Shown here in pieces: positions 47,713 to 60,398 of a stretch of DNA of 64,000 bases (its first letter is position 1; each line of letters starts with the position of its first letter). The stretch is from assembly GCF_004216555.1 (NCBI RefSeq), contig NZ_SGWQ01000015.1:1-64000 (forward strand), read 5' to 3'. A program made the position numbers and the translations under genes. This stretch comes from Herbihabitans rhizosphaerae (GTDB lineage Bacteria > Actinomycetota > Actinomycetes > Mycobacteriales > Pseudonocardiaceae). The notes beneath the pieces were generated by a model that worked only from the letters and a program-made list of their open reading frames with translations, searched no databases and was not told the DNA's origin.

Positions 47713-48217
47713 GGTGCCGGCCGTCCGGGGTGAACGTGAGCGGCTTGCGCCACATGACGTGCACCCGATGGTCGGACCACAACGCCTCGATCGGACGAAC
47801 CCGGAAGAACGCGCGCTTCGGGGTGTCCACGTGGTCGTAGAGCCGCGAGTCGGCCAGCCACGGGAACTGCTCGCGGCTCACCCGGACCGCCAGCTCCACC
47901 TCCTCGGGATCGTCTACCAGCGACGCATGGCCCTTGACCTGCACGGACTGCACGCCGTCACGCTCGACGTAGCCGGCGTCCGGCAGGTGTGAGACCACAT
48001 AGGACACGCGCGGGTCGCGCAGCATCTGCTCGTACTTCCGCGCGCTGGTGAACGTGTGCAGGTAGACGATCAGCCCGTCGGCGGCGATGTGCATGTCCGA
48101 CGCCGACGGCCAACCGTCCACATCGGACAGGGTGGCGAGTGCGCCGACTTCCTTGTACGCCAACAGATCCACGATGTCCTGCTCGATCTGCTGGAGCGGC
48201 GGTTCGACGATTCTCAT
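47699..48217 (-). CDS. Pyridoxamine 5'-phosphate oxidase-fold protein
   Basis: This 172-residue split-barrel flavin-type protein begins with a helix, then VGALATLSDVDGWPSASDMHI. The core SARKYEQMLRDPRVSYVVSH is typical of PNPOx-like F420- or FMN-binding proteins. The ATG overlaps the stop of the FAD oxidoreductase gene (ATGA). It is the last gene of the leftward polyketide arm, so a role as a reductase or oxidase on the polyketide, or as flavin partner of the upstream enzyme, is plausible but unproven. Confidence 0.83.
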   Translation of the reverse strand: MRIVEPPLQQIEQDIVDLLAYKEVGALATLSDVDGWPSASDMHIAADGLIVYLHTFTSARKYEQMLRDPRVSYVVSHLPDAGYVERDGVQSVQVKGHASLVDDPEEVELAVRVSREQFPWLADSRLYDHVDTPKRAFFRVRPIEALWSDHRVHVMWRKPLTFTPDGRHLTDE

Positions 48218-49770
48218 GGCGTGCCGACCACCTTGGCGAAGTCGTAGCCGAGGTCCTCCAGCACGACCCGCGCACCCGCACGGGCACCGCCGGTGACGCC
48301 CTGACCCGGGTGGGTGGACGGGCCGACGAGGTAGAAACCCTTGGCGGGCAACCGATATCCCATGTTCGGCAGCGGCCGGTAGCCGAGGAACTGGAACAAC
48401 TGGCAGCCGAAGTGGCCGGGGTCGCCACCGGGCCAGGCCGCGTTGAACCGGGCCGAGTCCAGCGGGCTGTGCACCACCCTGGCCAGCACCTTGTCCGCGC
48501 TCATGTTGGTGGTCTGCGCGCAGAACGTGTCGAATACCCGGTCGAAGATCTCCTCCTTGCGGCTGTCCCAGTCGCCCTCGGCCAGTTCGGTCGGCGCGTA
48601 GCTGAGCAGGTAGAGCGTGTGCTTGCCGTCCGGCGCGCGGGTCGGGTCCCACACGCTGGGCACCGCGATGCTCGGGATGGAGTGGATCGGCTCGCCGTAC
48701 TTCAGCTTGTCGAACGCGCGCAGCAGATCCGGCAGCGGCGCCGTGATCTCCTGGAACCCGGCAGCGCCCGCGTGCTCCCCCGCGGTGAACACCGGCGCCT
48801 CGGACAGCGCCAGATGTCCTGCCAGCAAACCGAATCCGACCGGTTTGATCCGCTCCACCTTGCGCCGCCAGTCCGCGCCGAACCGGTCGCCGGTCATCTC
48901 GGGCAGCTGCTTGATGTTGAGGTTCGCGACCACCGCGCGCTCGGCGCGCAACTCCTCGCCGGTGGTCAGCTCGACGCCGGACACGCGGTCGCCGTCGAAC
49001 AGGAACCGCCGCACCACCGCGCCGGTGCGGATGCGCCCGCCGTGCTCGGTGATCGAGGCGACCAGCGCGTCGGTGAGCGCGCCGGACCCGGTCTCCACGT
49101 AGCCCATGCCGTAGCGGTGGATGAACGGCACCATCATCAACAGGAACGCGCCGGTGCCGCCCTCCTCCGGCGCGATCAGCAGCTCGGACACCCAGCGGGT
49201 CAGCGCCGCGATCACCTTCGGGTGCTCGAACCACTCCCGGCACACGTCCAGGTAGCTCATCATGAGTACCCGGATCATTTCCTGGCCGGTCTCGGTGGAG
49301 TCGAGCTGCGAGAGCAGCGCGCCCATCGGGGCCGGCGGCGCGAAGAACGCCGGCAGCAGCATGTCCAGCAGTGGGCTGGCGAACTCGTGGAAGCGCAGGT
49401 AGTTCTCCGCGTCCGGCCGGCTGATCGCGGCGATGGTCTCCGCGGTCTTGTGCACGTCGCGGTGGAAGGCGATGAAGTCGCCGTCCGGGAACACCACCGA
49501 CATGCTCGGATCGGGGTGCACGTAGCGCAGCCCGTGCCGGGACAGCAGGCCGAGTTCGTCGTCGCTGATCATCGGGTTGCCGTGGATGAAGATGTGCGCG
49601 ATGGCGTGCAGGTCGTGCCGGAACCCGGGCAGCGTGGCCTCGTGCGTGACCACCCCGCCGCCGAGTTCTTCCTTGCCCTCCAACACTTCCACGTCGAGTC
49701 CGGCCTTCGCCAGATAGGCCGCGGCGGTCAGGCCGTTGTGCCCGCCGCCGGCCACGATCACCTCAGGCAC
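48214..49770 (-). CDS. Phytoene desaturase-like FAD-dependent oxidoreductase
   Basis: This 518-residue flavoprotein begins with VIVAGGGHNGLTAAAYLAKAG, the dinucleotide-binding motif of the CrtI/FAD-oxidoreductase family. It ends with GFYLVGPSTHPGQGVTGGARAG, the second FAD contact of CrtI-like enzymes. The GTG at 49770 is chosen because AAAGGGG lies 5 bp upstream; a GTG at 49776 would overlap that site. It overlaps the SDR upstream and the PNPOx-like gene downstream, so it belongs to the polyketide operon. It may oxidise or desaturate the polyketide; no carotenoid genes are present. Confidence 0.87.
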   Translation of the reverse strand: MPEVIVAGGGHNGLTAAAYLAKAGLDVEVLEGKEELGGGVVTHEATLPGFRHDLHAIAHIFIHGNPMISDDELGLLSRHGLRYVHPDPSMSVVFPDGDFIAFHRDVHKTAETIAAISRPDAENYLRFHEFASPLLDMLLPAFFAPPAPMGALLSQLDSTETGQEMIRVLMMSYLDVCREWFEHPKVIAALTRWVSELLIAPEEGGTGAFLLMMVPFIHRYGMGYVETGSGALTDALVASITEHGGRIRTGAVVRRFLFDGDRVSGVELTTGEELRAERAVVANLNIKQLPEMTGDRFGADWRRKVERIKPVGFGLLAGHLALSEAPVFTAGEHAGAAGFQEITAPLPDLLRAFDKLKYGEPIHSIPSIAVPSVWDPTRAPDGKHTLYLLSYAPTELAEGDWDSRKEEIFDRVFDTFCAQTTNMSADKVLARVVHSPLDSARFNAAWPGGDPGHFGCQLFQFLGYRPLPNMGYRLPAKGFYLVGPSTHPGQGVTGGARAGARVVLEDLGYDFAKVVGTP

Positions 49771-50518
49771 GGCCACCCCTTTGGTAGCCGCCGTCGATGT
49801 CCCACACCGACCCGGTGACGAACGCGCTCTCCCGCTCGTCCAGCAACGTCAGCACCGGCCGGGCGATCTCCTCGGCGTCGGCGATCCGCTTGATCAGGTT
49901 GGTGCCGATCACCATGTCGCGCAGGCCCGGGATCGCCTCGGAGCCGGCCTGCAGGCCCGGTGTCTCGGTGATGCCGGCGCACACGCCGTTCACCCGGATG
50001 CCCAGCGACGCGAGCTCCGTCGCCCAGGTCGGCACCAGATAGTGCAGCGCCGCCTTGGTGGCGCCGTACACGCCGAGGCCGGCGGCGGGCTTGCGCCCGA
50101 TGGACGAGGTGATCACGACGATCGCGGTGTCCGGACGCTTGGCCAGCGCCGGCGCGGCGGCGGCCACGCTGGCGATGGTGCCGCGCAGGTTCACCCCGAT
50201 CACATGGTCCACTTCGGACAGCGGCTGGTTGAGGATCGACCCGGGAAGGAGCACGCCGGCGTTGCACACCAACAGATCCAGGCCGTCGTAGGTGTCCGCG
50301 GCGTGTGCCACGGCGCGTTCGGAGGTGTCCTGGTCGGTCATGTCACCGGCCACGTAGGACACGCGCGGACCGAGTGCCGCGCTGGCGTCGACCAGACCGG
50401 CTTCACGCCGGGCGGTGAGCACCACGTTCGCTCCCTCGGCCACCAGCGCCCGCGCGATCGCGAAACCGATCCCCGCGCTGGCGCCGGTGACCAAGGCGGT
50501 CTTGCCCTGGAAGCGCAT
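49763..50518 (-). CDS. SDR family ketoreductase (FabG-like)
   Basis: This 251-residue SDR has GASAGIG at residues 11-17, NAG at about 88, the catalytic Ser in ITSSIG and YGATK (Tyr-x3-Lys). It starts 5 bp after the acyl carrier protein segment and overlaps the FAD oxidoreductase, placing it in the leftward polyketide operon. FabG-like enzymes reduce beta-ketoacyl-ACP; here it may be a second ketoreductase or a tailoring enzyme beside the ActIII-like reductase of the other arm. Confidence 0.88.
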   Translation of the reverse strand: MRFQGKTALVTGASAGIGFAIARALVAEGANVVLTARREAGLVDASAALGPRVSYVAGDMTDQDTSERAVAHAADTYDGLDLLVCNAGVLLPGSILNQPLSEVDHVIGVNLRGTIASVAAAAPALAKRPDTAIVVITSSIGRKPAAGLGVYGATKAALHYLVPTWATELASLGIRVNGVCAGITETPGLQAGSEAIPGLRDMVIGTNLIKRIADAEEIARPVLTLLDERESAFVTGSVWDIDGGYQRGGRA

Positions 50519-50523
50519 TGCCG

Positions 50524-50763
50524 CTACCCGCAGAGCTTGTCGGCGAGTTCGTCGAAGGTCAGCGTGTTCGCGTCCTCCGGCAGCTCGGGCACGCCGTGCT
50601 CGGTGCGCAGCAGGACGCCCAGTTCGACCAGGGCGATCGAGTCGAGGCCCAGGTCGTCCAGCGCGGTCTGCCGCTGCTTGTCCAGCACCTCGCCGTCCAG
50701 GCCGACCTCGACAACCAGGATCTCGCGCAGCGTGATCGGGTCCAGCGTCGTGGTGTCGTTCAT
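50524..50763 (-). CDS. Acyl carrier protein (C-terminal domain or separately initiated)
   Basis: A 79-residue ACP starts at the internal ATG, with GAGGAGTGAAGTC (GAGGAG 8 bp upstream) as ribosome site. Ser42 in LGLDSIAL is the 4'-phosphopantetheine attachment site; helix I begins ITLREILVVEV and helix III ends FDELADKL. In known type II clusters the ACP is a separate protein, so this start may be the one used, with the upstream carboxylase frame merely lacking a stop codon. It carries the growing chain for the KS and its short partner. Confidence 0.65.
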   Translation of the reverse strand: MNDTTTLDPITLREILVVEVGLDGEVLDKQRQTALDDLGLDSIALVELGVLLRTEHGVPELPEDANTLTFDELADKLCG

Positions 50764-52131
50764 GACTTCACTCCTCGTGGGTTCGGTGTGCATGTGTTCG
50801 AGCAGGTCGGTGGTGTGCTGTCCGGCACGGAACAGCGGATGGTCGACGACCCTCGCCACGAACGGCGTGGTGGTGGCGATCCGGTCGCCCTCGACCACCA
50901 ACTCATCGAGCGCGCGGGCCATCCGGGAGCACGCCTGCGCGCGCGTCGGCGCCCAGGTGACCACCTTGGCCAGCAGGCTGTCGTAGTCCGGCGGAATGCG
51001 ATAACCGTTGTGCGCGTGGGTATCCACCCGGGTGAACGGGCCGCCGGGCGGGTCGAACCGGGTCAGCACCCCGGGTGTGGGGCGGAACTCCTGGTCGGGA
51101 TCCTCGGCGTTGATCCGGCACTCGATCGCCGACCCGCGCAGGGTGATCTCGGCCTGGGACAGCTCCAGCTTGTCGCCCTGTGCCACCCGGATCTGCTGCT
51201 CGACCAGGTCGACTCCGGTGACCATCTCGGTGACCGGGTGCTCGACCTGCAGCCGGGCGTTCATCTCCATCAGGTAGAACTCGCCGGCGTCGTCGACCAG
51301 GAACTCCATCGTGCCCGCGCCGGTGAAGCCGACCGACAGCGCGCCGCGCACCGACGCCTCGCCCATGGCCGTACGGGTGGCCTCGGGCAGGTTGGGCGCC
51401 GGCGCCTCCTCCACCAGCTTCTGGTGCCGCCGCTGGGTGGAGCAGTCCCGGTCGCCGAGGTACACGCCGTTGCCGTACTGGTCGCACAGCACTTGCACCT
51501 CGATGTGCCGCGCGCCGGTGAGGTACCGCTCCAGGTAGACCCGACCGTCACCGAACACCGCCGCGGCCGCGGCCCGGGTGCGGGTGAACGCGGCGGGCAG
51601 GTCGGCGCGGGAGCGCACGATGCTCATGCCCCGCCCGCCGCCGCCGGCCACCGCCTTGAGGATCACCGGGAAGCCGATCTCGCCGGCGATGTCGGTCGCC
51701 TCGGCCGCGGTGGCCACCGGCTCGACCGTGCCGGGCAGCAGCGGCAGCCCGGCCTCGCTCATCAGTCGTCGGGTGGTCGCCTTGTCCCCCAACGCTTTCA
51801 TCACCTCGGGGCGCGGGCCGACGAACAGCAGGTCCTCGGCCGCGCACACCTCGGCGAAGTCGGGGTCCTCGGACAGGAAGCCGTAGCCGGGGTGCACCGC
51901 GTCGGCGCCGGAGACCCTGGCCGCCTCGATGATCGCGGGCACCGACAGGTAGCTGCGCTTGGCCGCCGCCGGTCCGATGTGGACGGAGTCGTCGGCCATC
52001 CGCACGACCGCGGAGTCCCGGTCGGCCGAGGAGTACACGGCGACCGTGCCGATACCGATCTCCTTGCACGTCCTGGCGATCCGGACGGCGATCTCGCCCC
52101 GGTTGGCGATCAGCAGCGTGCGTATCGTCAT
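50524..52131 (-). CDS. accC: Acetyl-CoA biotin carboxylase continuous with acyl carrier protein
   Basis: A single uninterrupted frame of 535 codons. Residues 1-450 are a complete biotin carboxylase: IANRGEIAVRI at the start, ATP-grasp glycine loop KAVAGGGGRGM, EMNARLQVEHPVTE and the C-terminal barrel. From Met457 the frame continues into a complete ACP with the phosphopantetheine site LGLDSIAL (Ser498). No stop codon separates the two; an internal ATG at 50763 with GAGGAG upstream could also start free ACP. The ATG at 52131 overlaps the accB stop. It makes carboxybiotin for malonyl-CoA supply and, with ACP, directly links precursor supply to chain assembly. Confidence 0.88.
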   Translation of the reverse strand: MTIRTLLIANRGEIAVRIARTCKEIGIGTVAVYSSADRDSAVVRMADDSVHIGPAAAKRSYLSVPAIIEAARVSGADAVHPGYGFLSEDPDFAEVCAAEDLLFVGPRPEVMKALGDKATTRRLMSEAGLPLLPGTVEPVATAAEATDIAGEIGFPVILKAVAGGGGRGMSIVRSRADLPAAFTRTRAAAAAVFGDGRVYLERYLTGARHIEVQVLCDQYGNGVYLGDRDCSTQRRHQKLVEEAPAPNLPEATRTAMGEASVRGALSVGFTGAGTMEFLVDDAGEFYLMEMNARLQVEHPVTEMVTGVDLVEQQIRVAQGDKLELSQAEITLRGSAIECRINAEDPDQEFRPTPGVLTRFDPPGGPFTRVDTHAHNGYRIPPDYDSLLAKVVTWAPTRAQACSRMARALDELVVEGDRIATTTPFVARVVDHPLFRAGQHTTDLLEHMHTEPTRSEVMNDTTTLDPITLREILVVEVGLDGEVLDKQRQTALDDLGLDSIALVELGVLLRTEHGVPELPEDANTLTFDELADKLCG

Positions 52132-52589
52132 CGGTCCACGCTTTCCTGATCGCGCAACGGTTCCAGGGTCAGCAGCGGCTGGTCGAACTCGACGCCGTCG
52201 CCGTTGGGCACCAGGACGTCGCGCACCACCCCGGTGGTCTCCGCGGTGATCCGGTTCAGCAGCTTCATCGCCTCGACGATGCCGATCACGGTGTCCGGCG
52301 TGACGGTCTCGCCGACCGACACGAACGGCGGCTCGCCGGGCGCCGGCGCGTGGTAGAACGTGCCGACCATCGGCGACCGCACGACCGTGGTGTCGGTGTC
52401 GTCCGAGGATTCCGGCTCCGGCGGGTCCACTGTGGACACTGGTGCGACGGCCGGCTCGGGTGGCCGCCACTCCATCTCCACCGCGGTCGTGCCGACGCGC
52501 ACCTGGACCCGGCTCAACGGCCCGGCCACGTCGGCCGCCAGCCGGCGCGCCTCCTCGCTCAACGTGCGCAGTAAATCGTCCTCGCTCAT
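52128..52589 (-). CDS. accB: Biotin carboxyl carrier protein
   Basis: This 153-residue carrier has a helical N-terminal part (1-40), a flexible acidic/proline-rich linker (45-68) and the biotinyl domain, with the biotin attachment Lys109 in EAMKL and the thumb-containing RSPMVGTFYHAP. The ATG at 52589 has GGAGGACG upstream. It overlaps accDA and accC by 4 bp on each side, making one tightly coupled acetyl-CoA carboxylase operon. Confidence 0.93.
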   Translation of the reverse strand: MSEDDLLRTLSEEARRLAADVAGPLSRVQVRVGTTAVEMEWRPPEPAVAPVSTVDPPEPESSDDTDTTVVRSPMVGTFYHAPAPGEPPFVSVGETVTPDTVIGIVEAMKLLNRITAETTGVVRDVLVPNGDGVEFDQPLLTLEPLRDQESVDR

Positions 52590-54268
52590 TTCACGTCCTC
52601 CGTCCACTGTGGAGCGCCGATCCGGCGCAGCCGCTCGCGGCGGCGGGCGACGAGCTGGTCGGCGGGAATCCCGCCGAGCTCGCCGATGGTGGTCCGCACC
52701 GCGGCGGCGAGGTTGGCAGCCGCCGCGGTGGGGTCGGTGTGCGCGCCGTCGCCGGGTTCCGGGATGACGCCGTCGACCACGCCGAGGCGGAGCAGGTCCG
52801 GCGCGGTGATCCTCAGTGCCTCGGCGGCGCGCGGCGCGGCGGTCGCGTCCCAGAGGATCGCGGCGCAGCCTTCCGGCGAGATCACCGAGTAGACGCCGTT
52901 GGCGAACATCAGCACCTGGTCGCCGACGGCGAGCGCCAGCGCGCCGCCGCTGCCGCCCTCACCGGTGATCACCGGGATCACCGGCACCCGCAATCCGGTC
53001 AGCGCCAGGATGTTCGTCGCGATCGCGCCGGCTTGACAGTTCTCCTCCGCGGCCACTCCGGGGTACGCGCCAGGGGTGTCGATCAGCGTCACGACCGGCA
53101 GGCCGAGCTTCTCGGCGAGCCGGAACAGCCGCAGCGCCTTGCGATAACCCTCTGGCCCGGCCATGCCGAAGTTGGTGGCCAGCAGTTCGCGGGTGGAGTG
53201 CCCCTTCTGCGTGGCCACGACCATCGCGCTGATCCCGCCGAGGTCGGCGATCCCACCGATGATGGTCGGCGAGTCGGCGCCCATCCGGTCACCGTGCAGC
53301 TCCAGGAACGACTCGGCGATCAGGTGCGTGTACTCGCGCCCGGTGGGCCGTTCCGCGTTGCGTGCCAAGGAGACCACGTGCCACGGGTCCCGCTCGGGCA
53401 GGTCCCGACAGTCCCGTATCAGTCCACTTGGGACGGTCGGCGGCGGTGCGGACGGTCCACCGGCGGCGCGCAGCAGCCGGGACAGCACGTCGCGCAGTTC
53501 GGCCCGGTCCGCGACCACGTCGAGCGCGCCGCGGGCGAGCAGGAACTCGGCGGTCTGGAAGCCGTCGGGCAGCTCGGCGCGCACCGTGTCGCGGATGACC
53601 CTGCGGCCGGCGAAACCCAGCCGCGCACCCGGTTCGGCGATGATCACGTCCGCCTGCGTGGCGAACGACGCGGCGACGCCACCGTAGGTCGGGTCGGTGA
53701 TCAGCGACACGAACAGCAGGCCCGCCTCGTTCAGCGCGGCGATCGCCTGACTGACTTTTGCCATCTGCAGCAGGGAAAGCACGCCCTCCTGCATCCGAGC
53801 GCCGCCCGAGGCGGTCACCACCAGCAGCGGCAGGCGCCGGGCCAGCGCGTCCTCGGCGGCCAGCGTCAGCAGCTCGCCGACTCCGGTACCCAGGCTGCCG
53901 CCGAGGAACCGGAAGTCCATCACGGCGAGCACCAGCGGCCGGCCGTCGATCGCGGCCGCGCCGCACACCACCGCCTCCCGCTCCCCCGTGTCGCGTCTGG
54001 CGTCCTCGACCCGCCGCGGGTACGGCCGGCGGTCGGTGAAGCCGAGTGGATCGGTGTCCGGAAGCCGGTGGATCTGCTCGCGGAACGTGCCGGGGTCGAC
54101 CAGTTGGCGGATCCGCTCACGAGCGGTCAGCCGCCCGTGTGCCCCGCATTCCGGGCAGACGCCGGCATTCCGGTTCCACCTTTTGGCGTAGACGAGTTCC
54201 CTGCATGTGGGGCAGTGCAGCCATTCCGCCTGCGTTACCCCCAAAGACTCCTGCTCGACTGTCGTCAT
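52586..54268 (-). CDS. accDA: Acetyl-CoA carboxylase carboxyltransferase, beta-alpha fusion
   Basis: This 560-residue protein fuses AccD and AccA. The N-terminal zinc ribbon has CPTC (19-22) and CPEC (38-41). The beta half contains GGSLGTGVGE and TASGGARMQEG; the alpha half has SFLELHGDRMGADSP, DTPGAYPG and GEGGSGGALAL, the oxyanion-forming loops. It transfers CO2 from carboxybiotin to acetyl-CoA to make malonyl-CoA. It is the first gene of the leftward arm and divergent from the KS gene. Such dedicated carboxylases occur in several aromatic polyketide clusters (jadomycin, gilvocarcin). Confidence 0.93.
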   Translation of the reverse strand: MTTVEQESLGVTQAEWLHCPTCRELVYAKRWNRNAGVCPECGAHGRLTARERIRQLVDPGTFREQIHRLPDTDPLGFTDRRPYPRRVEDARRDTGEREAVVCGAAAIDGRPLVLAVMDFRFLGGSLGTGVGELLTLAAEDALARRLPLLVVTASGGARMQEGVLSLLQMAKVSQAIAALNEAGLLFVSLITDPTYGGVAASFATQADVIIAEPGARLGFAGRRVIRDTVRAELPDGFQTAEFLLARGALDVVADRAELRDVLSRLLRAAGGPSAPPPTVPSGLIRDCRDLPERDPWHVVSLARNAERPTGREYTHLIAESFLELHGDRMGADSPTIIGGIADLGGISAMVVATQKGHSTRELLATNFGMAGPEGYRKALRLFRLAEKLGLPVVTLIDTPGAYPGVAAEENCQAGAIATNILALTGLRVPVIPVITGEGGSGGALALAVGDQVLMFANGVYSVISPEGCAAILWDATAAPRAAEALRITAPDLLRLGVVDGVIPEPGDGAHTDPTAAAANLAAAVRTTIGELGGIPADQLVARRRERLRRIGAPQWTEDVK

Positions 54269-54536
54269 TGCTCACCTTCCCCTTACTTAGCGGCGAGACT
54301 CGGCGAACGGAATTCATGAGACAGGCGGTTCAGCACTGCCGTCAATACGCTTTGTCAGATACTCCAAGAACGGCGAGCAGGGGTTGTAGGGGTCAGTAAA
54401 TCAGCAGGTCAGAGCACAGATCACAAACAATTGGCGTCGATCCTGTCGTTCGCCCCATAGGGGTTCACACCCCCTGCCGGCTAACTTCGTGACGGTCCGA
54501 AACATTTGAGTCACACCCCGCCGAGAAGGATGTGCC
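54269..54536. promoter_or_regulatory. Divergent promoter region of the polyketide cluster
   Basis: This 268-bp region is less GC-rich than its surroundings and should hold both operon promoters. Visible signals are a direct repeat GGTCAG (54391-54396 and 54407-54412), the palindrome CCCCATAGGGG (54453-54463) and GGGG-TTCACA-CCCC next to it. AAGGAT serves as ribosome site for the KS gene. No SARP regulator is in the window, and I could not recognise its heptamer repeats. Confidence 0.5.
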
Positions 54537-55781
54537 ATGGGGACGGTCGACGGCGATTCCGAGAATTATTCGATTGGTCTAAACAATGGAGCACGCAGGC
54601 GAGTCGTGCTGACCGGAGTCGGCGCGGTGTCACCGGCCGGGCCGGAGTCGAAAGCGCACCTGTCCGGCCTGCTGGCCGGCCGGTCGGCGGCCAGGGAACT
54701 CACCGAGGACTGGTTCGCGCCGTTCGCCAAGTCGATCGGCGCGCCGGTGGACTCCGTGACGCCGGCGGCCGGCCTGCCCCGGCACGTCGCCTACGCCGAC
54801 CTCGCCATCACCGAGGCGCTGGCCGAGGCCGGCCTGGACGCCGAGGAACTGGCCGGCACGCACCTGGTCACCTCGACCGCGATCGGCGCGTCGGTCGAGC
54901 TCGAGACGGCTTTCCGGGACGCGAGCGTGATCCCGCCGGGCTGGTTCGGCTTCGACCTGGTCACCGAACGGGCGCGCGAGCAGCACAAGGTCGGCCGCCA
55001 CGGCTGGTCGATGACGCTGTCCACCGGGTGCACCGCCGGGCTCGACGCGCTGGGCACCGGATACGACGCGGTGGCCGCCGGCCGGGCGCGCCGGGTGTTG
55101 GTCGTGTCCGCGGAGGCCACCATGTGCCCGATCGTGCTGGCCGCGTTCCAGAAGATCGGCGCGCTGTCCAACCGCGATGTCGAGGCCGAGCGCGCCTCCG
55201 CGCCGTTCTCCCGCCAGCGCGACGGATTCGTGCTCGGCGAGGGTGCCGCCGCGGTCCTCTTGGAGGACGCCGAACTGGCCACCGCCCGCGGCGCACAGCC
55301 GCTGCTGGAGGTCCTCGGCTGGGCCTCGGTGTCCAGCGCGTACCACATGACCAGGATTCGCCGGTCCGGCGAGGACATCGCCGCCTCGATCCGCCAGGCG
55401 CTGGACGACGCCGGCCTGCCGCCGGACGCGGTCGAGTCGATCGACGCGCACGGCACGTCCACTCCGCTCAACGACGCCAGCGAGACCGCCGCGTATCACG
55501 ACGTGTTCGGCGCTCGGGCGAACCGGCTGCCGGTCGTCGCGCAGAAGGGCGTCACCGGGCACGCGCTGGGCGCGTCCAATCTGCTGGAGATCGCGGGCCT
55601 GGCCCGATACCTGCCCGGCGGCGCGCTGCCGCCGACCGCCAACACCACCGCCGAGACGCTGGACGCCGATCTGGACGTGGTGCTCGACGAACCGCGCCTG
55701 GCCGAGCCGGAGATCGTGGTGAAGACCAGCAGCGGCTTCTCCGGCATCCACAGTGCCGCGGTGCTGAGGAGGATCTCGTGA
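54537..55781 (+). CDS. Type II polyketide beta-ketoacyl synthase (KS-alpha)
   Basis: This 414-residue FabF-like condensing enzyme has the full catalytic set: Cys165 in STGCTAGLDALG, His305 in DAHGTST and His342 in KGVTGHALGAS. The sequence AGLDALG after the Cys is typical of aromatic-polyketide KS-alpha proteins. A 20-residue leader precedes VVLTGVGAVSP. Its stop overlaps the GTG of the KS-like partner. It condenses malonyl-ACP units on the ACP. The starter unit and chain length cannot be read from sequence. Confidence 0.93.
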   Translation: MGTVDGDSENYSIGLNNGARRRVVLTGVGAVSPAGPESKAHLSGLLAGRSAARELTEDWFAPFAKSIGAPVDSVTPAAGLPRHVAYADLAITEALAEAGLDAEELAGTHLVTSTAIGASVELETAFRDASVIPPGWFGFDLVTERAREQHKVGRHGWSMTLSTGCTAGLDALGTGYDAVAAGRARRVLVVSAEATMCPIVLAAFQKIGALSNRDVEAERASAPFSRQRDGFVLGEGAAAVLLEDAELATARGAQPLLEVLGWASVSSAYHMTRIRRSGEDIAASIRQALDDAGLPPDAVESIDAHGTSTPLNDASETAAYHDVFGARANRLPVVAQKGVTGHALGASNLLEIAGLARYLPGGALPPTANTTAETLDADLDVVLDEPRLAEPEIVVKTSSGFSGIHSAAVLRRIS

Positions 55782-56641
55782 GAAAACCCCTGCACGAACT
55801 GGAGATCGCCGCCGCGGCGACCGCGCTGCCGCCCGACGGCGAACGCGCCACCGTGGACCTGCGCCGGTCGGGCCCGCCCGACCGTGGCGACACGGTCGAC
55901 CTGCCCGCGTTCGCCACCGACCCGCGCACCGATCCGGCGGTGCCCGCCCCGCTGCGCCGGCGCATCGACCGGTTCGCCGCGGTCGCCCACCTCGCGGTCA
56001 ACCGGGTGCTCGCCGACCTGCCCGACCGCCCGCCGCGCGAGCGGATCGGCGTGTTCCTGGTCAACGCCAGGGCCGGCTGGTCCTACGGCGAGCCGGAGCT
56101 GGCGCTGCTGGTCGACCAGGGCGCCGAGGCGATGCACGCCTACCAGGCCACGGCGTGGTTCCCGGCCGCGGCGCAGGGCGAGGTGACCATCGACCTGGAC
56201 CTGCGCGGGTGCGCCAAGACCACCGCCGGGCGCGCGTCCGGGTTCGCCGAGGCGCTGTGGCTGGCCAGGGACGCGCTGGAGCGCGACGCGGTCGACCTGG
56301 CGCTGGTCGGCGCGGCCGAGTCGCTGGTGAACGGGTTCGTGCTGCGCGACTGGCCCGCCGAACAGGCGCTGCCGGACTCCGGCCCGGCCGAGGGCGCGGT
56401 GGTGTTCGCGCTGCGCCGCCCCACCGACGAGCCGGCTGATCACCCGGCAACCCGGTTACACGACCTGCGTCACGAGCCGGAAACGGCCACGCCCCAACAG
56501 GTTTGGGCGCCGACACTGTCGGCGGCCGCCGACCTGTACGCCGCGCTGGCCGCGGCGGCACCAGCCGACGTCGACCTCGGCGGCGGCTTCCGGATCACCG
56601 TCCACCCGCGAAGGAGTAACAGTGAACACGGTACTGAGTGA
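55778..56641 (+). CDS. Short KS-beta/chain-length-factor-like thiolase-fold protein
   Basis: This 287-residue protein occupies the KS-beta position but is about 120 residues shorter than usual CLFs. It retains a thiolase-like core (RIGVFLVNARAG, RGCAKTTAGRASGFAEALWLA, VDLALVGAAES) and ends where the C-terminal half with the HGT and GH motifs would begin. I see no Cys-His-His triad and no CLF-type Gln replacement I can align. It resembles stand-alone beta-ketoacyl synthase N-terminal-like proteins and may be a minimal structural partner. Its GTG overlaps the KS stop, and its end overlaps the cyclase gene by 20 bp. Confidence 0.75.
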   Translation: MRKPLHELEIAAAATALPPDGERATVDLRRSGPPDRGDTVDLPAFATDPRTDPAVPAPLRRRIDRFAAVAHLAVNRVLADLPDRPPRERIGVFLVNARAGWSYGEPELALLVDQGAEAMHAYQATAWFPAAAQGEVTIDLDLRGCAKTTAGRASGFAEALWLARDALERDAVDLALVGAAESLVNGFVLRDWPAEQALPDSGPAEGAVVFALRRPTDEPADHPATRLHDLRHEPETATPQQVWAPTLSAAADLYAALAAAAPADVDLGGGFRITVHPRRSNSEHGTE

Positions 56642-57104
56642 GATCGTCCCCGCCGGAAACCTGGCCGCCGTGGCCCGGCACGAGCTGCACATCCCCGGCC
56701 CGGTCGCCGAGGTGTTCGAGATGACCAGGGACGTGACCCGCTGGAGCGAGTACATGCCGGCGGTCACCGAGGCCAAGTTCGTCGAGGACCACGCCGACGG
56801 CGACGTGGTGGAGATCAGCGCCGAGGCCAACGACGAGAAGCACACCTGGCGCTCCCGCCGGGCCGTCGACCGTACCGAGCGGACGATCGAGTTCAGTCGG
56901 ATCGGCGCGACCGAGCCGCTGGTGACCATGACCGGCAAGTGGGAGTTCCAGGCTGACGGCGACGGCACCCGTGCGGTGCTCACCCACCGCTTCGTCACCA
57001 CCACGACCGAGGCGCTGGAGTTCTTCGGCAACGCCACCCGCTCCAACGCCACCCGCGACCTCGAGGGCCTCGCGGACCACTTCACCAAGGAGGCCGCGCG
57101 ATGA
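56622..57104 (+). CDS. SRPBCC polyketide cyclase/aromatase
   Basis: This 160-residue START/Bet v1-fold protein of the polyketide cyclase family has the N-terminal strand VARHELHIPGPVAEVFEM, the TRDVTRWSEYMP helix region and the C-terminal long helix ending in GLADHFTKEA. It probably guides the regiospecific first-ring cyclisation or aromatisation of the poly-beta-keto chain. The GTG at 56622 has AAGGAG upstream. It is coupled to the ketoreductase (ATGA). Confidence 0.88.
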   Translation: MNTVLSEIVPAGNLAAVARHELHIPGPVAEVFEMTRDVTRWSEYMPAVTEAKFVEDHADGDVVEISAEANDEKHTWRSRRAVDRTERTIEFSRIGATEPLVTMTGKWEFQADGDGTRAVLTHRFVTTTTEALEFFGNATRSNATRDLEGLADHFTKEAAR

Positions 57105-57892
57105 GCGCCGTACTGCGGGACAAGGTCGCGCTGATCACCGGCGGCAGCCGGGGCATCGGCCGGGCCTCGGCGACCACGCTGGGCACCATGGGCGCGACCG
57201 TGGTGATCACCGGCACCTCGACGGAGACCGTCGACACGGGCGTCGCCGCGCTCAAGGACGCCGGCCTGCCGAAGGTCAGCGGCCACGTGGCCGACGTACG
57301 CGAGCAGAGCAGCGTCGACGCGCTGTTCGACGACGTGCTCGCCGAGCACGGCCGGGTCGACGTACTGGTCAACAACGCCGGCGTCGGCGGAGGCGGCTGG
57401 ACCCACGAGATCCCGTACGACACGTGGGAGCAGTTGATCGACATCAACCTCAACGGCGTGTTCCGGGTGACCCGCACTTGGCTGCTGCGCTCCGGCGCCC
57501 GCGACCGCGGCTGGGGCCGAGTGATCAACATCGCCTCCACCGGCGGCAAGCAGGGCGTGCGGCTGGCCGTCGCCTACACCGCCAGCAAGCACGGCGTGGT
57601 CGGGCTGTCCAAGTCGCTGGCCCACGAGACGGCCAAGCACGGGATCACGGTCAACGCGGTGTGCCCCGGCTTCGTGGAGACCGAGCTGTCGATCGGCTCG
57701 CGGCAGCGCTACGCGGCCGCGTGGGGCATCACCCCGGAAGAGGTGCTGGAGAAGCAGAACGCGCGCTTTCCGTTGGGGCGCCACGTGAATCCGGACGAGG
57801 TCGCACGGCTGGTGGGGTTCCTCGCCGACCCGGCGGCGGAGGCGATCACCGGCCAGGCGATGAACGTCTGCGGCGGACTCGGGCTTTACTGA
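57101..57892 (+). CDS. ActIII-like polyketide ketoreductase
   Basis: This 263-residue SDR has GGSRGIG at residues 14-20, NNAG at about 89, ASTGGKQGV carrying the catalytic Ser, and YTASK (Tyr-x3-Lys). STGGKQGV and the surrounding loop match the actinorhodin C-9 ketoreductase family. It reduces a specific keto group (usually C-9) of the nascent chain. It lies between two cyclases in one operon, 20 bp before the fused cyclase-hydrolase. Confidence 0.93.
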   Translation: MSAVLRDKVALITGGSRGIGRASATTLGTMGATVVITGTSTETVDTGVAALKDAGLPKVSGHVADVREQSSVDALFDDVLAEHGRVDVLVNNAGVGGGGWTHEIPYDTWEQLIDINLNGVFRVTRTWLLRSGARDRGWGRVINIASTGGKQGVRLAVAYTASKHGVVGLSKSLAHETAKHGITVNAVCPGFVETELSIGSRQRYAAAWGITPEEVLEKQNARFPLGRHVNPDEVARLVGFLADPAAEAITGQAMNVCGGLGLY

Positions 57893-57912
57893 CCAGAGAG
57901 GGACCTGATCCG

Positions 57913-59490
57913 ATGACAACCGCCACCGCGACCGTGGTCGTCAACTCCATCCACGTCGACGCCTCCCCCGAACTGCTCTACCAGTCCTGTGTGGACGTCG
58001 GGTACTGGCCGCTGATCTTCCCCACCGTCGAGAAGGTGGACACCACGGCGACCGCGCCGGACGAGATCACCATGGACATGACCGTGGCCAACGATCTCGG
58101 CCGCAACGCCGTCCGCTCGCACCGCGTCTACCACCGCTCCACGCTACGCATCGACTTCACCATGTCCACGCTGCCGCCGGCGATCGCCGCGATGGACGGG
58201 CACTGGATCGTCGAGGCGGACGGCACCGGTGCGCGGTTGGAGATCACGCACAGCGTCGTGCCCAGCGACCCGTCCGAGACCGCCGCGCTGGTCGAAACCC
58301 TGTACGGCACAACGGAAAACGTGCTCGGACAGCTCAAGGGCTGGGTGGAGTCGGAGCGCGAGCTGGACGAGCTGTACACCGAGATGCGCGCGTCCACCAG
58401 CAAGGTGTCGCCGGAGATGTACTCGGTGTGCGAGCTGTTCTTCAGCCGGCTCGGCCTGTGCGGCCTCGACTGGGGCGACATCGTCATGGTCTGCAAGGAC
58501 CTGCGCAAGAAGAACACGCACGAGGACTGGGCGGACTGGCACCGCCGGTGGTCCGCACTCGGCCGGCACTACCAGACGCGGGCCGAGGCGGCGTTCGCCG
58601 ACGGGCGGATCGAGACCGGCCGGCTGTGCGTCGGCCGGGCGGCGGCGGCTTTCCACTTCGCCGAGTTCTTCTTCTTCGACGAGCCGGAGCTCAAGGACCC
58701 AACCAGGGCCAGGGTGACCGCGGTGTTCGAGCGCGGCCGGGAGTACTCGCGCACCCCGATCCGTCCGTTGCGGATTCCCTTTCGGGACTTGGAGTTGCCG
58801 GGGTACCTGATGACGCCGGACGGCGAGGGACCCTGGCCGACGGTGATCCTGGTCAACGGTCTCGACTCGGCCAAGGAGGTCGAGCTGCTGGCGTTCGCCG
58901 AGTCGTTCCTGGCCCGCGGGATGGCCGCGGTCGTGTTCGACGGACCCGGCCAGGGCGAGCTCGCCGGGTCGCTGCCGATGGAGATCCAGTACGAGAACGT
59001 GGTCGACGCCGTGCTCTCCGTGCTGGCCGGCGAGTCCGATGTGGACAGTGAGAGGATCGGGATCTTCGGGGTGAGCTTCGGCGGCTACCTCGCACCCCGT
59101 GCGGCCGCCTGCCTCGACACGATCAAGGCCTGCGTGAGCCTGTCCGGCGGGTTCGACCACGACGGCTACGAAGACCTGAACATCATGGTGCAGAAGGACT
59201 TCAAGCACGTGTTCCACATCGACGACGATGTCGAGATGGCCGAGCTGAGCCGCGCGAAGCTGAACCTGCGGGAGGTCCCGCCGCTGCGGGTTCCGCTGCT
59301 GTCGGTGCACCCGGAGGAGGACAAGATCATCCCGTTCGAGTCCTGCCTGCGGATGATCGAGTGGGCCGAGGGCGACACCGAGTTGCTGCGCTACCCCGGC
59401 GCCCGGCACGTGGCACCCGAGCACTTCGCCGACTACATCCCGTTCTTCGGCGACTGGATGGCGCGGCACCTGGGAGTGCTTCCGCGATGA
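57913..59490 (+). CDS. Polyketide cyclase fused to an alpha/beta hydrolase (FrsA-like)
   Basis: This 525-residue two-domain protein has a START-type cyclase at residues 1-150 (VVVNSIHVDASPELLYQ, WPLIFPTVEKV). After a helical linker (160-285) comes an alpha/beta hydrolase of the FrsA/DUF1100-like family, with nucleophile Ser388 in GVSFGG, Asp470 in PEEDK and His499 in ARHV; the lid helices come before the core. Cyclase and hydrolase may work in series: ring closure, then release or C-C/ester cleavage of the ACP- or CoA-bound product. The GAGAGGGACC site precedes the ATG at 57913. The stop overlaps the next gene. Confidence 0.88.
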   Translation: MTTATATVVVNSIHVDASPELLYQSCVDVGYWPLIFPTVEKVDTTATAPDEITMDMTVANDLGRNAVRSHRVYHRSTLRIDFTMSTLPPAIAAMDGHWIVEADGTGARLEITHSVVPSDPSETAALVETLYGTTENVLGQLKGWVESERELDELYTEMRASTSKVSPEMYSVCELFFSRLGLCGLDWGDIVMVCKDLRKKNTHEDWADWHRRWSALGRHYQTRAEAAFADGRIETGRLCVGRAAAAFHFAEFFFFDEPELKDPTRARVTAVFERGREYSRTPIRPLRIPFRDLELPGYLMTPDGEGPWPTVILVNGLDSAKEVELLAFAESFLARGMAAVVFDGPGQGELAGSLPMEIQYENVVDAVLSVLAGESDVDSERIGIFGVSFGGYLAPRAAACLDTIKACVSLSGGFDHDGYEDLNIMVQKDFKHVFHIDDDVEMAELSRAKLNLREVPPLRVPLLSVHPEEDKIIPFESCLRMIEWAEGDTELLRYPGARHVAPEHFADYIPFFGDWMARHLGVLPR

Positions 59491-60398
59491 CCGCCACCGA
59501 GGAGACCCCCGCGTCCTCGGCGGTCCCAGCGTCCTCGGCGTCCACGGCATCCGCTGTGGACGCCGGGGGCGCGCGGCCGGTGATCGTGGACCTGAGCGTG
59601 CCGGTCGACCCGGAGTACTGGGAGCCGGAACCGGTGCGGCGCAAGGTGATCGGCCACCGGGAGGGCGCGGACCTGCTCGGCCGGTCCTACGCCTACCTGC
59701 GTGCGCCGAACCGCCTCGCGCGGTGGGTCAGCGTGCTGCTGCACCGGCTCGGCCGCGGAGTGAACCACCGCGACTTCCCGGACGGCAAGGGCCTGTCGCT
59801 GATGCACTACACGCTCACCACGCACACCGGGACGCACATGGACGCGCCGTGGCACTACGGCGACCTGACCGCGTCCGGCGAGCGGGCGCGCACCATCTGC
59901 GAGGTGCCGCTGGACTGGTGCCACGGCGACGGCGTGCTGCTGGACCTGCGTGCCGGGCCGGCCGACCAGGCCGTCACGGCCACGGAGATCGCGGCGGCCC
60001 TGGGCGCGATCGACTACACGATCAAGCCGTTGGACATCGTGCTGCTGTGGACCGGCGGGGACACCGAGATCGGGACGCGCGGGTACTTCCAGCGCTTCCG
60101 CGGTGTCACCCGGGAGGCCACGGCGTACCTGGTCGAGCGCGGCGTGAAGGTGATCGGGGTGGACAGCTTCGGGTTCGACGCGCCGTTCCTGCGCATGCTG
60201 GAGTCCTATATGGACAGTGGCGAGGTCGCCGACCTGTGGCCGGCCCACCTGTACGGCAGGGAGGCCGAGTACTGCCAGTTGGAGCGGCTGACCAACCTCG
60301 GCGCGATCGGCCGGCCGCACGGGTTCCGGGTCAGCTGCTTCCCGGTGAAGCTGGCCGGCGGCGACGCCGGCTGGACCCGCGTGGTGGCGCACGTCTGA
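59487..60398 (+). CDS. Metal-dependent cyclase family protein (kynurenine formamidase-like)
   Basis: This 303-residue protein of the cyclase superfamily (PF04199 type) has the metal-binding signature HTGTHMDAPWH at about residues 112-122. A low-complexity Ser/Ala leader of about 30 residues precedes the domain. Members hydrolyse N-formylkynurenine or act as cyclases in polyketide clusters. Its ATG overlaps the hydrolase stop (ATGA), so it is the last gene of the rightward polyketide arm. Possibly catalyses a late ring closure or lactone/amide hydrolysis. Confidence 0.85.
   Translation: MTATEETPASSAVPASSASTASAVDAGGARPVIVDLSVPVDPEYWEPEPVRRKVIGHREGADLLGRSYAYLRAPNRLARWVSVLLHRLGRGVNHRDFPDGKGLSLMHYTLTTHTGTHMDAPWHYGDLTASGERARTICEVPLDWCHGDGVLLDLRAGPADQAVTATEIAAALGAIDYTIKPLDIVLLWTGGDTEIGTRGYFQRFRGVTREATAYLVERGVKVIGVDSFGFDAPFLRMLESYMDSGEVADLWPAHLYGREAEYCQLERLTNLGAIGRPHGFRVSCFPVKLAGGDAGWTRVVAHV

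Follow-up and report, generated by a model that had tools for sequence, protein, structure and literature searches.

The question raised by this locus is whether one protein could combine ring formation with chain release in an aromatic type II PKS, a setting in which release of the chains from the carrier protein is described as largely unknown (PMC11476836). The window, the whole stretch of 64,000 nucleotides analysed from Herbihabitans rhizosphaerae, contains a gene that the first-pass annotation described as a START-type cyclase joined through a helical linker to an FrsA-like hydrolase, and suggested would be an unusual offloading enzyme if it closes a ring and then cleaves or releases the product.

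The gene is a single ORF from the ATG at 57913 to the TGA at 59490, encoding 525 aa with no internal stops. The same two-domain protein was found in two other genomes, Streptomyces albiflavescens (L004) and one more of that genus (L062), which rules out a chance ORF or an assembly artefact or join and confirms the two-domain observation as real. The predicted boundaries between the parts were revised. Because the match to the hydrolase AntI starts at residue 162, the supposed helical linker corresponds to the helical domain of AntI itself, one half of the AntI/DHPON-hydrolase fold, and the real linker is only about 15 residues long. The Ser388-Asp470-His499 triad had been numbered correctly and is intact, aligning with AntI Ser245/Asp326/His355. 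The features of the gene and its surroundings are listed in Table 1.

Table 1. Features of the fusion gene and the surrounding PKS cluster, by position in the window.
Feature	Position	Strand	Basis
FAD-dependent oxidoreductase	48214..49776	-	identity of 71-79% (by segment) in the two fusion-bearing Streptomyces-genus clusters
Second SDR (KR2)	49763..50518	-	66-67% identical in both fused Streptomyces-genus clusters
AccC biotin carboxylase with in-frame C-terminal ACP (ACP ATG about 50763)	50524..52132	-	domain matches
AccD-AccA carboxyltransferase (malonyl-CoA supply)	52586..54268	-	domain matches
KS-alpha, 414 aa, active-site Cys present (STGCTAG)	54537..55781	+	actinorhodin KS E 2e-60; 6smo_B (AntD) E 2e-57
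Short CLF, 287 aa, best match AntE	55778..56641	+	6smo_C E 4e-14; Act CLF E 4e-6
Mono-domain ARO/CYC, like first half of di-domain ARO/CYCs	56622..57104	+	BexL E 2e-18, ZhuI; tree
SDR ketoreductase KR1	57101..57892	+	counterparts at 48-54% identity in all AntI-type clusters analysed in detail
Fused ARO/CYC - AntI-type hydrolase, 525 aa	57913..59490	+	single ORF, domain matches, fused homologues L004 and L062
START/helix-grip ARO/CYC domain, residues 6-150	57928..58362	+	BexL E 1e-10; ZhuI/TcmN fold match
Arg71 codon (= TcmN Arg69)	58123..58125	+	alignment; arginine role in PMC12664062
Interdomain linker, about residues 151-165, variable among homologues	58363..58407	+	alignment with L004 and AntI
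Helical substrate-pocket (N-)domain of AntI fold, about residues 166-280, including Arg179 (= AntI Arg24)	58408..58752	+	AntI alignment from residue 162
Alpha/beta-hydrolase core, about residues 281-521	58753..59475	+	Pfam and PDB matches
GLDS loop, residues 316-319 (= AntI 173-176)	58858..58869	+	AntI alignment; role in PMC11165489
Ser388 nucleophile (GVSFGG)	59074..59076	+	translation and AntI alignment
Asp470 (catalytic) and Lys471 (at AntI gate Asp327 position)	59320..59325	+	AntI alignment
His499, catalytic	59407..59409	+	AntI alignment
PF04199 putative cyclase, overlaps fusion gene end	59487..60398	+	E 2e-31; 49% to Crinalium cluster gene

The N-terminal domain was compared with known cyclases by profile, sequence and fold. 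The Pfam families Polyketide_cyc2 (residues 8-142, E 1.6e-4, 22.4 bits) and Polyketide_cyc (E 9.8e-4) both matched, with scores under the Pfam cut-off for the window protein and over it for two fused homologues (E about 1e-9). Among PDB sequences, residues 1-160 matched the ARO/CYC BexL at E 1e-10 and TcmN weakly. For the AlphaFold model of the domain, with per-block pLDDT mostly 67-93, the best fold matches were ZhuI, TcmN and StfQ (ZhuI/TcmN TM 0.77-0.85 of target, rmsd about 2.1-2.5 Å), placing it in the helix-grip fold of TcmN/ZhuI-type ARO/CYC domains. The cyclase assignment is thus upheld by both sequence and fold, and the domain is not the unrelated lid that the first-pass annotation had considered as an alternative.

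Trp32, Ser69 and Arg71, equivalent to TcmN Trp28, Ser67 and Arg69, are kept in all three fusions; in the alignment, the equivalents of TcmN Tyr35 and Trp65 are not kept in the fusion N-domains. TcmN Arg69 is needed for C9-C14 cyclisation and ZhuI Arg66 for activity (PMC12664062). An arginine equivalent to Arg71 also aligns in BexL's second domain, and in BexL it is the first domain that is reported as active (PMC12664062), so Arg71 is no proof of N-domain activity. In the domain tree, the fusion N-domain groups with the second halves of di-domain ARO/CYCs with moderate support (88/81), and the window's stand-alone cyclase (56622-57104) groups with the first halves. Since this second cyclase resembles a di-domain first half, the cyclase role of the fusion would be late ring closure or aromatisation. 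These groupings suggest that the two proteins could jointly supply both halves of a di-domain function. Both Streptomyces-genus relatives encode a full di-domain ARO/CYC besides the fusion, and the N-domain identity in their clusters is 47-49%.

The C-terminal part carries the Pfam label FrsA-like (PF06500; E 1.3e-14, residues 208-411). Its PDB matches were AntI (E 2e-43, residues 162-518), DHPON hydrolase (2e-33), Yg1 (3e-14) and FrsA (5e-12), and the match to AntI runs over its whole length, including the helical N-domain. The earlier name FrsA-like is therefore correct as a family label, but AntI and not FrsA is the relevant relative. A generic FrsA or esterase reading was rejected on the same weak FrsA match and on a score of 64.9 bits against the NCBIfam FrsA equivalog cut-off of 477. 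AntI pairs a helical N-domain with an alpha/beta C-domain, and in type II PKS anthraquinone biosynthesis it offloads the chain, trims it by a retro-Claisen reaction and closes the last ring by a Dieckmann reaction (PMC11165489). Offloading by an AntI-type hydrolase is thus already known chemistry; what is new is the covalent union of the two domains and the missing gate described below.

Along with the triad, the GLDS loop of AntI and the equivalent of its Arg24 (Arg179) are present in the window protein. The combination of GLDS and Arg24 was rejected as an AntI signature, as it is found superfamily-wide; because both are conserved in non-PKS relatives too, their presence alone does not demonstrate a polyketide substrate. 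In AntI, the gate residues Tyr20, Arg282 and Asp327 close the pocket, and the gate mutant D327A gives about 30% octaketide shunt products (PMC11165489). None of the three is found in the window protein, which has Leu175, Ile424 and Lys471 at these positions; the S. albiflavescens protein has Leu/Val/Thr and the third fusion Leu/Ala/Thr, and gate absence is listed for the window protein, L004 and L052. The Tyr/Arg/Asp gate was present in all nine discrete AntI rows and absent from more distant relatives. From this pattern, it looks as though the gate was either gained by the discrete AntI proteins or lost by the fusions.

To place the hydrolase, a tree was built with IQ-TREE from 44 rows chosen by similarity to the window protein, with the AntI, DHPON and Yg1 rows partial and taken from printed alignments. 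The three fusions grouped together (96/96) as the sister clade of the nine discrete AntI rows (100/100) and not inside them, with support of 98/96 for the joint clade. DHPON hydrolase grouped with L013-L015 (100/99), away from the fusions, which do not belong to its clade; it and other actinobacterial relatives fell outside the joint fusion/AntI clade. An AntI-type role is supported because AntI is the best solved relative and because the fusions and discrete AntI form one clade.

The fusion gene and the aromatic PKS genes around it form a compact cluster of about 12 kb (48214-60398). The forward-strand order is KS, short CLF, ARO/CYC, KR1, fusion and PF04199 cyclase, with genes overlapping or closely spaced; the reverse strand carries AccDA, AccC with ACP, KR2 and the FAD oxidoreductase. 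At 287 aa, the CLF is unusually short compared with the AntE chain (371) and the Act CLF (415), has no recognised C-terminal KS domain, and has an ATAWFPAA stretch in common with AntE. The only evident ACP of the cluster (50524-50770, reverse strand) is in frame at the AccC C-terminus; its own ATG is preceded by a GAGGAG ribosome-binding-like site, with a TGA there in another frame. The AccC-ACP fusion may be real, or AccC may have lost its stop or contain a base error. Stand-alone ACPs were seen in the related clusters L004, L062 and L043.

In both L004 and L062, the fusion sits beside KS, CLF, KR, ARO/CYC, second SDR and FAD oxidoreductase genes. KR1 is 48-50% identical in these two clusters, and KS, CLF and ACC are also common to them, at lower identity. 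The fusion co-occurs with KR2 and the FAD oxidoreductase in all three genomes, and the strong sequence conservation of these two enzymes suggests a tailoring route common to the three clusters.

The distribution of the fused form was determined by several screens, which together found it in the three genomes above; the S. albiflavescens protein is 57% identical to the window protein over the whole length. Samples of the order, class and family, which overlap in part, gave one case each (1/399, 1/395 and 1/348), in every instance the window genome itself, and the genus of S. albiflavescens gave two among 394 genomes, that species included. When one genome for each of 84,980 species was scanned by pattern, a method that detects close relatives only, L004 was the only full-length relative found. 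On 72,556 plasmids there were discrete hydrolases only and no fused protein, and a screen of 118 class genomes with the FAD oxidoreductase gene gave no match beyond the window genome itself. Apart from the window protein, the listed order, class and family matches start at about residue 149 or later, and a fusion common in primary metabolism, which would have undercut the first-pass reading, was rejected; the fusion is rare and cluster-bound. No paper on such an ARO/CYC-hydrolase fusion was found in the open-access papers searched (subscription papers were outside the search).

The two functions do occur as separate genes elsewhere, as the first-pass annotation had proposed to check. Discrete AntI-type hydrolases were found in type II PKS clusters of G692 (L043/L044), G029 (L045), G612 (L046), and G987, G893 and G1045 (L067-L069), whose neighbourhoods contain ARO/CYC, a KR1 counterpart and KS or CLF, and in G1080 (L064), where the stretch read contained KS and KR1. 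The discrete AntI-type hydrolase of the cyanobacterium Crinalium epipsammum (L041) has as neighbours a type I PKS, an aromatase/cyclase and an SRPBCC protein, along with a KR1 counterpart. The SRPBCC and hydrolase genes share a boundary base in Crinalium and the ARO/CYC and hydrolase genes overlap in G029, so the cyclase and hydrolase functions are neighbours even when unfused. AntI-like sets of KR, ARO/CYC and AntI-type hydrolase span a cyanobacterium, on a plasmid (L041), and actinobacteria (L045, L046, L067-L069). L041 and L046 also contain a CoA-ligase/AMP-binding gene. A ligase-like ORF was seen in L045, where the ARO/CYC gene that overlaps the hydrolase gene start (L045:10516-12426, reverse strand) has three SRPBCC repeats, the third weak. 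A further locus, L047 (G134:C2:42001-62000), has three genes of the AntI/DHPON-hydrolase superfamily in a span of about 16 kb, with two of the three almost side by side; no PKS genes were found there with the window queries.

Among known systems, AntI of Photorhabdus luminescens/laumondii (PDB 6HXA, 8QBH; PMC11165489) has the same two-part fold, Ser-Asp-His triad, GLDS loop and Arg24 equivalent, and its setting is likewise a type II PKS with KR, ARO/CYC and AntE-like CLF. It is, however, a separate protein with a gate, whereas the window protein is fused, lacks the whole gate, is about 30% identical and belongs to a sister clade. TcmN likewise joins an ARO/CYC, of the same helix-grip type as ZhuI, to another pathway enzyme in one chain, but its partner is an O-methyltransferase and not a hydrolase, and the TcmN/ZhuI pocket residues differ from those of the fusion. 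In the di-domain ARO/CYCs BexL, the nearest PDB sequence match of the N-domain, and StfQ, the partner is another ARO/CYC. The 2,6-dihydroxy-pseudo-oxynicotine (DHPON) hydrolase (2JBW, E 2e-33), a C-C hydrolase, and the fungal Yg1 hydrolases (8QD1, 8QD7; E 3e-14 for 8QD7) share the fold and C-C hydrolysis but are unfused, have other substrates and lie outside the AntI and fusion clade. FrsA (3MVE) has the PF06500 label in common but is a far weaker match. AlpS and StmF-type thioesterases (PMC11476836), compared by description only, are also proposed chain-release hydrolases of type II PKS, but are ordinary type II thioesterases without an ARO/CYC partner.

Taken with this context, our preferred reading, to which we assign a probability of about 0.5, is that the fusion would be a late-acting enzyme with two active sites, coupling ring closure or aromatisation of an ACP-bound intermediate to its offloading and trimming. 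We infer the reaction steps, their order and any channelling from the computational results on domain identity, residues, gate absence, context, rarity and phylogeny. The minimal PKS, reduction by KR1 and the stand-alone ARO/CYC would give an ACP-bound polyketide with its first ring closed, and the helix-grip domain of the fusion would then close or aromatise a further ring. The tethered AntI-type domain would accept that intermediate, still on the ACP, in the pocket that lies between the helical and alpha/beta halves, where Ser388-His499 would hydrolyse the thioester and cleave a beta-keto C-C bond by a retro-Claisen reaction, so that one polypeptide would form the ring first and then offload and trim the chain. 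As the fusion lacks the three residues with which AntI closes its pocket for the final Dieckmann step, closure of the last ring probably takes place outside the hydrolase pocket, by another enzyme (e.g. the PF04199 cyclase encoded next) or spontaneously. The earlier proposal of ring closure followed by release is partly supported, by the ARO/CYC domain, the intact-triad hydrolase and the type II PKS cluster, with 'cyclase' to be taken in the late sense given above. The ARO/CYC domain may also take over guarding of the pocket entrance. A stricter version, in which it hands the ring-closed ACP-bound chain directly to the gate-less domain for offloading and C-C trimming and physically replaces the gate, is possible but more doubtful; the AlphaFold prediction for the C-domain and the domain arrangement is a poor model from a two-row alignment.

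The missing gate also bears on what the hydrolase would do. As AntI uses the gate in its coupled reaction, its absence is consistent with a C-domain acting purely as a thioesterase that, like AlpS, offloads the cyclised chain from the ACP without a C-C cut and leaves a full-length product, and chain release by discrete thioesterases is described for type II PKS (PMC11476836). This is rather unlikely given that the closest relatives by sequence and tree are C-C hydrolases, as reported for AntI and Yg1 (PMC11165489). The same absence leaves room for a lid role of the START domain, which might be catalytically silent and serve in docking, dimerisation or as a lid, the hydrolase being the sole enzyme. 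The grouping with di-domain second halves, the half not named active in BexL (PMC12664062), and the loss of the Tyr35 and Trp65 equivalents point the same way. We consider a silent domain unlikely, however, as Arg71, Ser69 and Trp32 are invariant among the fusions and the two Streptomyces-genus clusters keep the domain despite their full di-domain ARO/CYC.

Least probable is action after release, with the hydrolase cleaving a C-C bond of the free aromatic product in the manner of DHPON hydrolase or Yg1. The Yg1 enzymes combine the same fold with diffusible substrates (PMC11165489), and the fusions resemble the DHPON-hydrolase and Yg1 relatives in having no AntI gate, but the tree places them with AntI. 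ARO/CYC domains work on carrier-bound or nascent chains, and fusion to one argues for action before release.

The fusion is a genuine, rare variant of known parts. With ring-forming and releasing or trimming domains in covalent union, the order and coupling of the steps become testable in one purified protein, and the gate-less sister group is a natural experiment on the function of the AntI gate. The fusion is also usable as a genome-mining marker for an unexplored cluster family.
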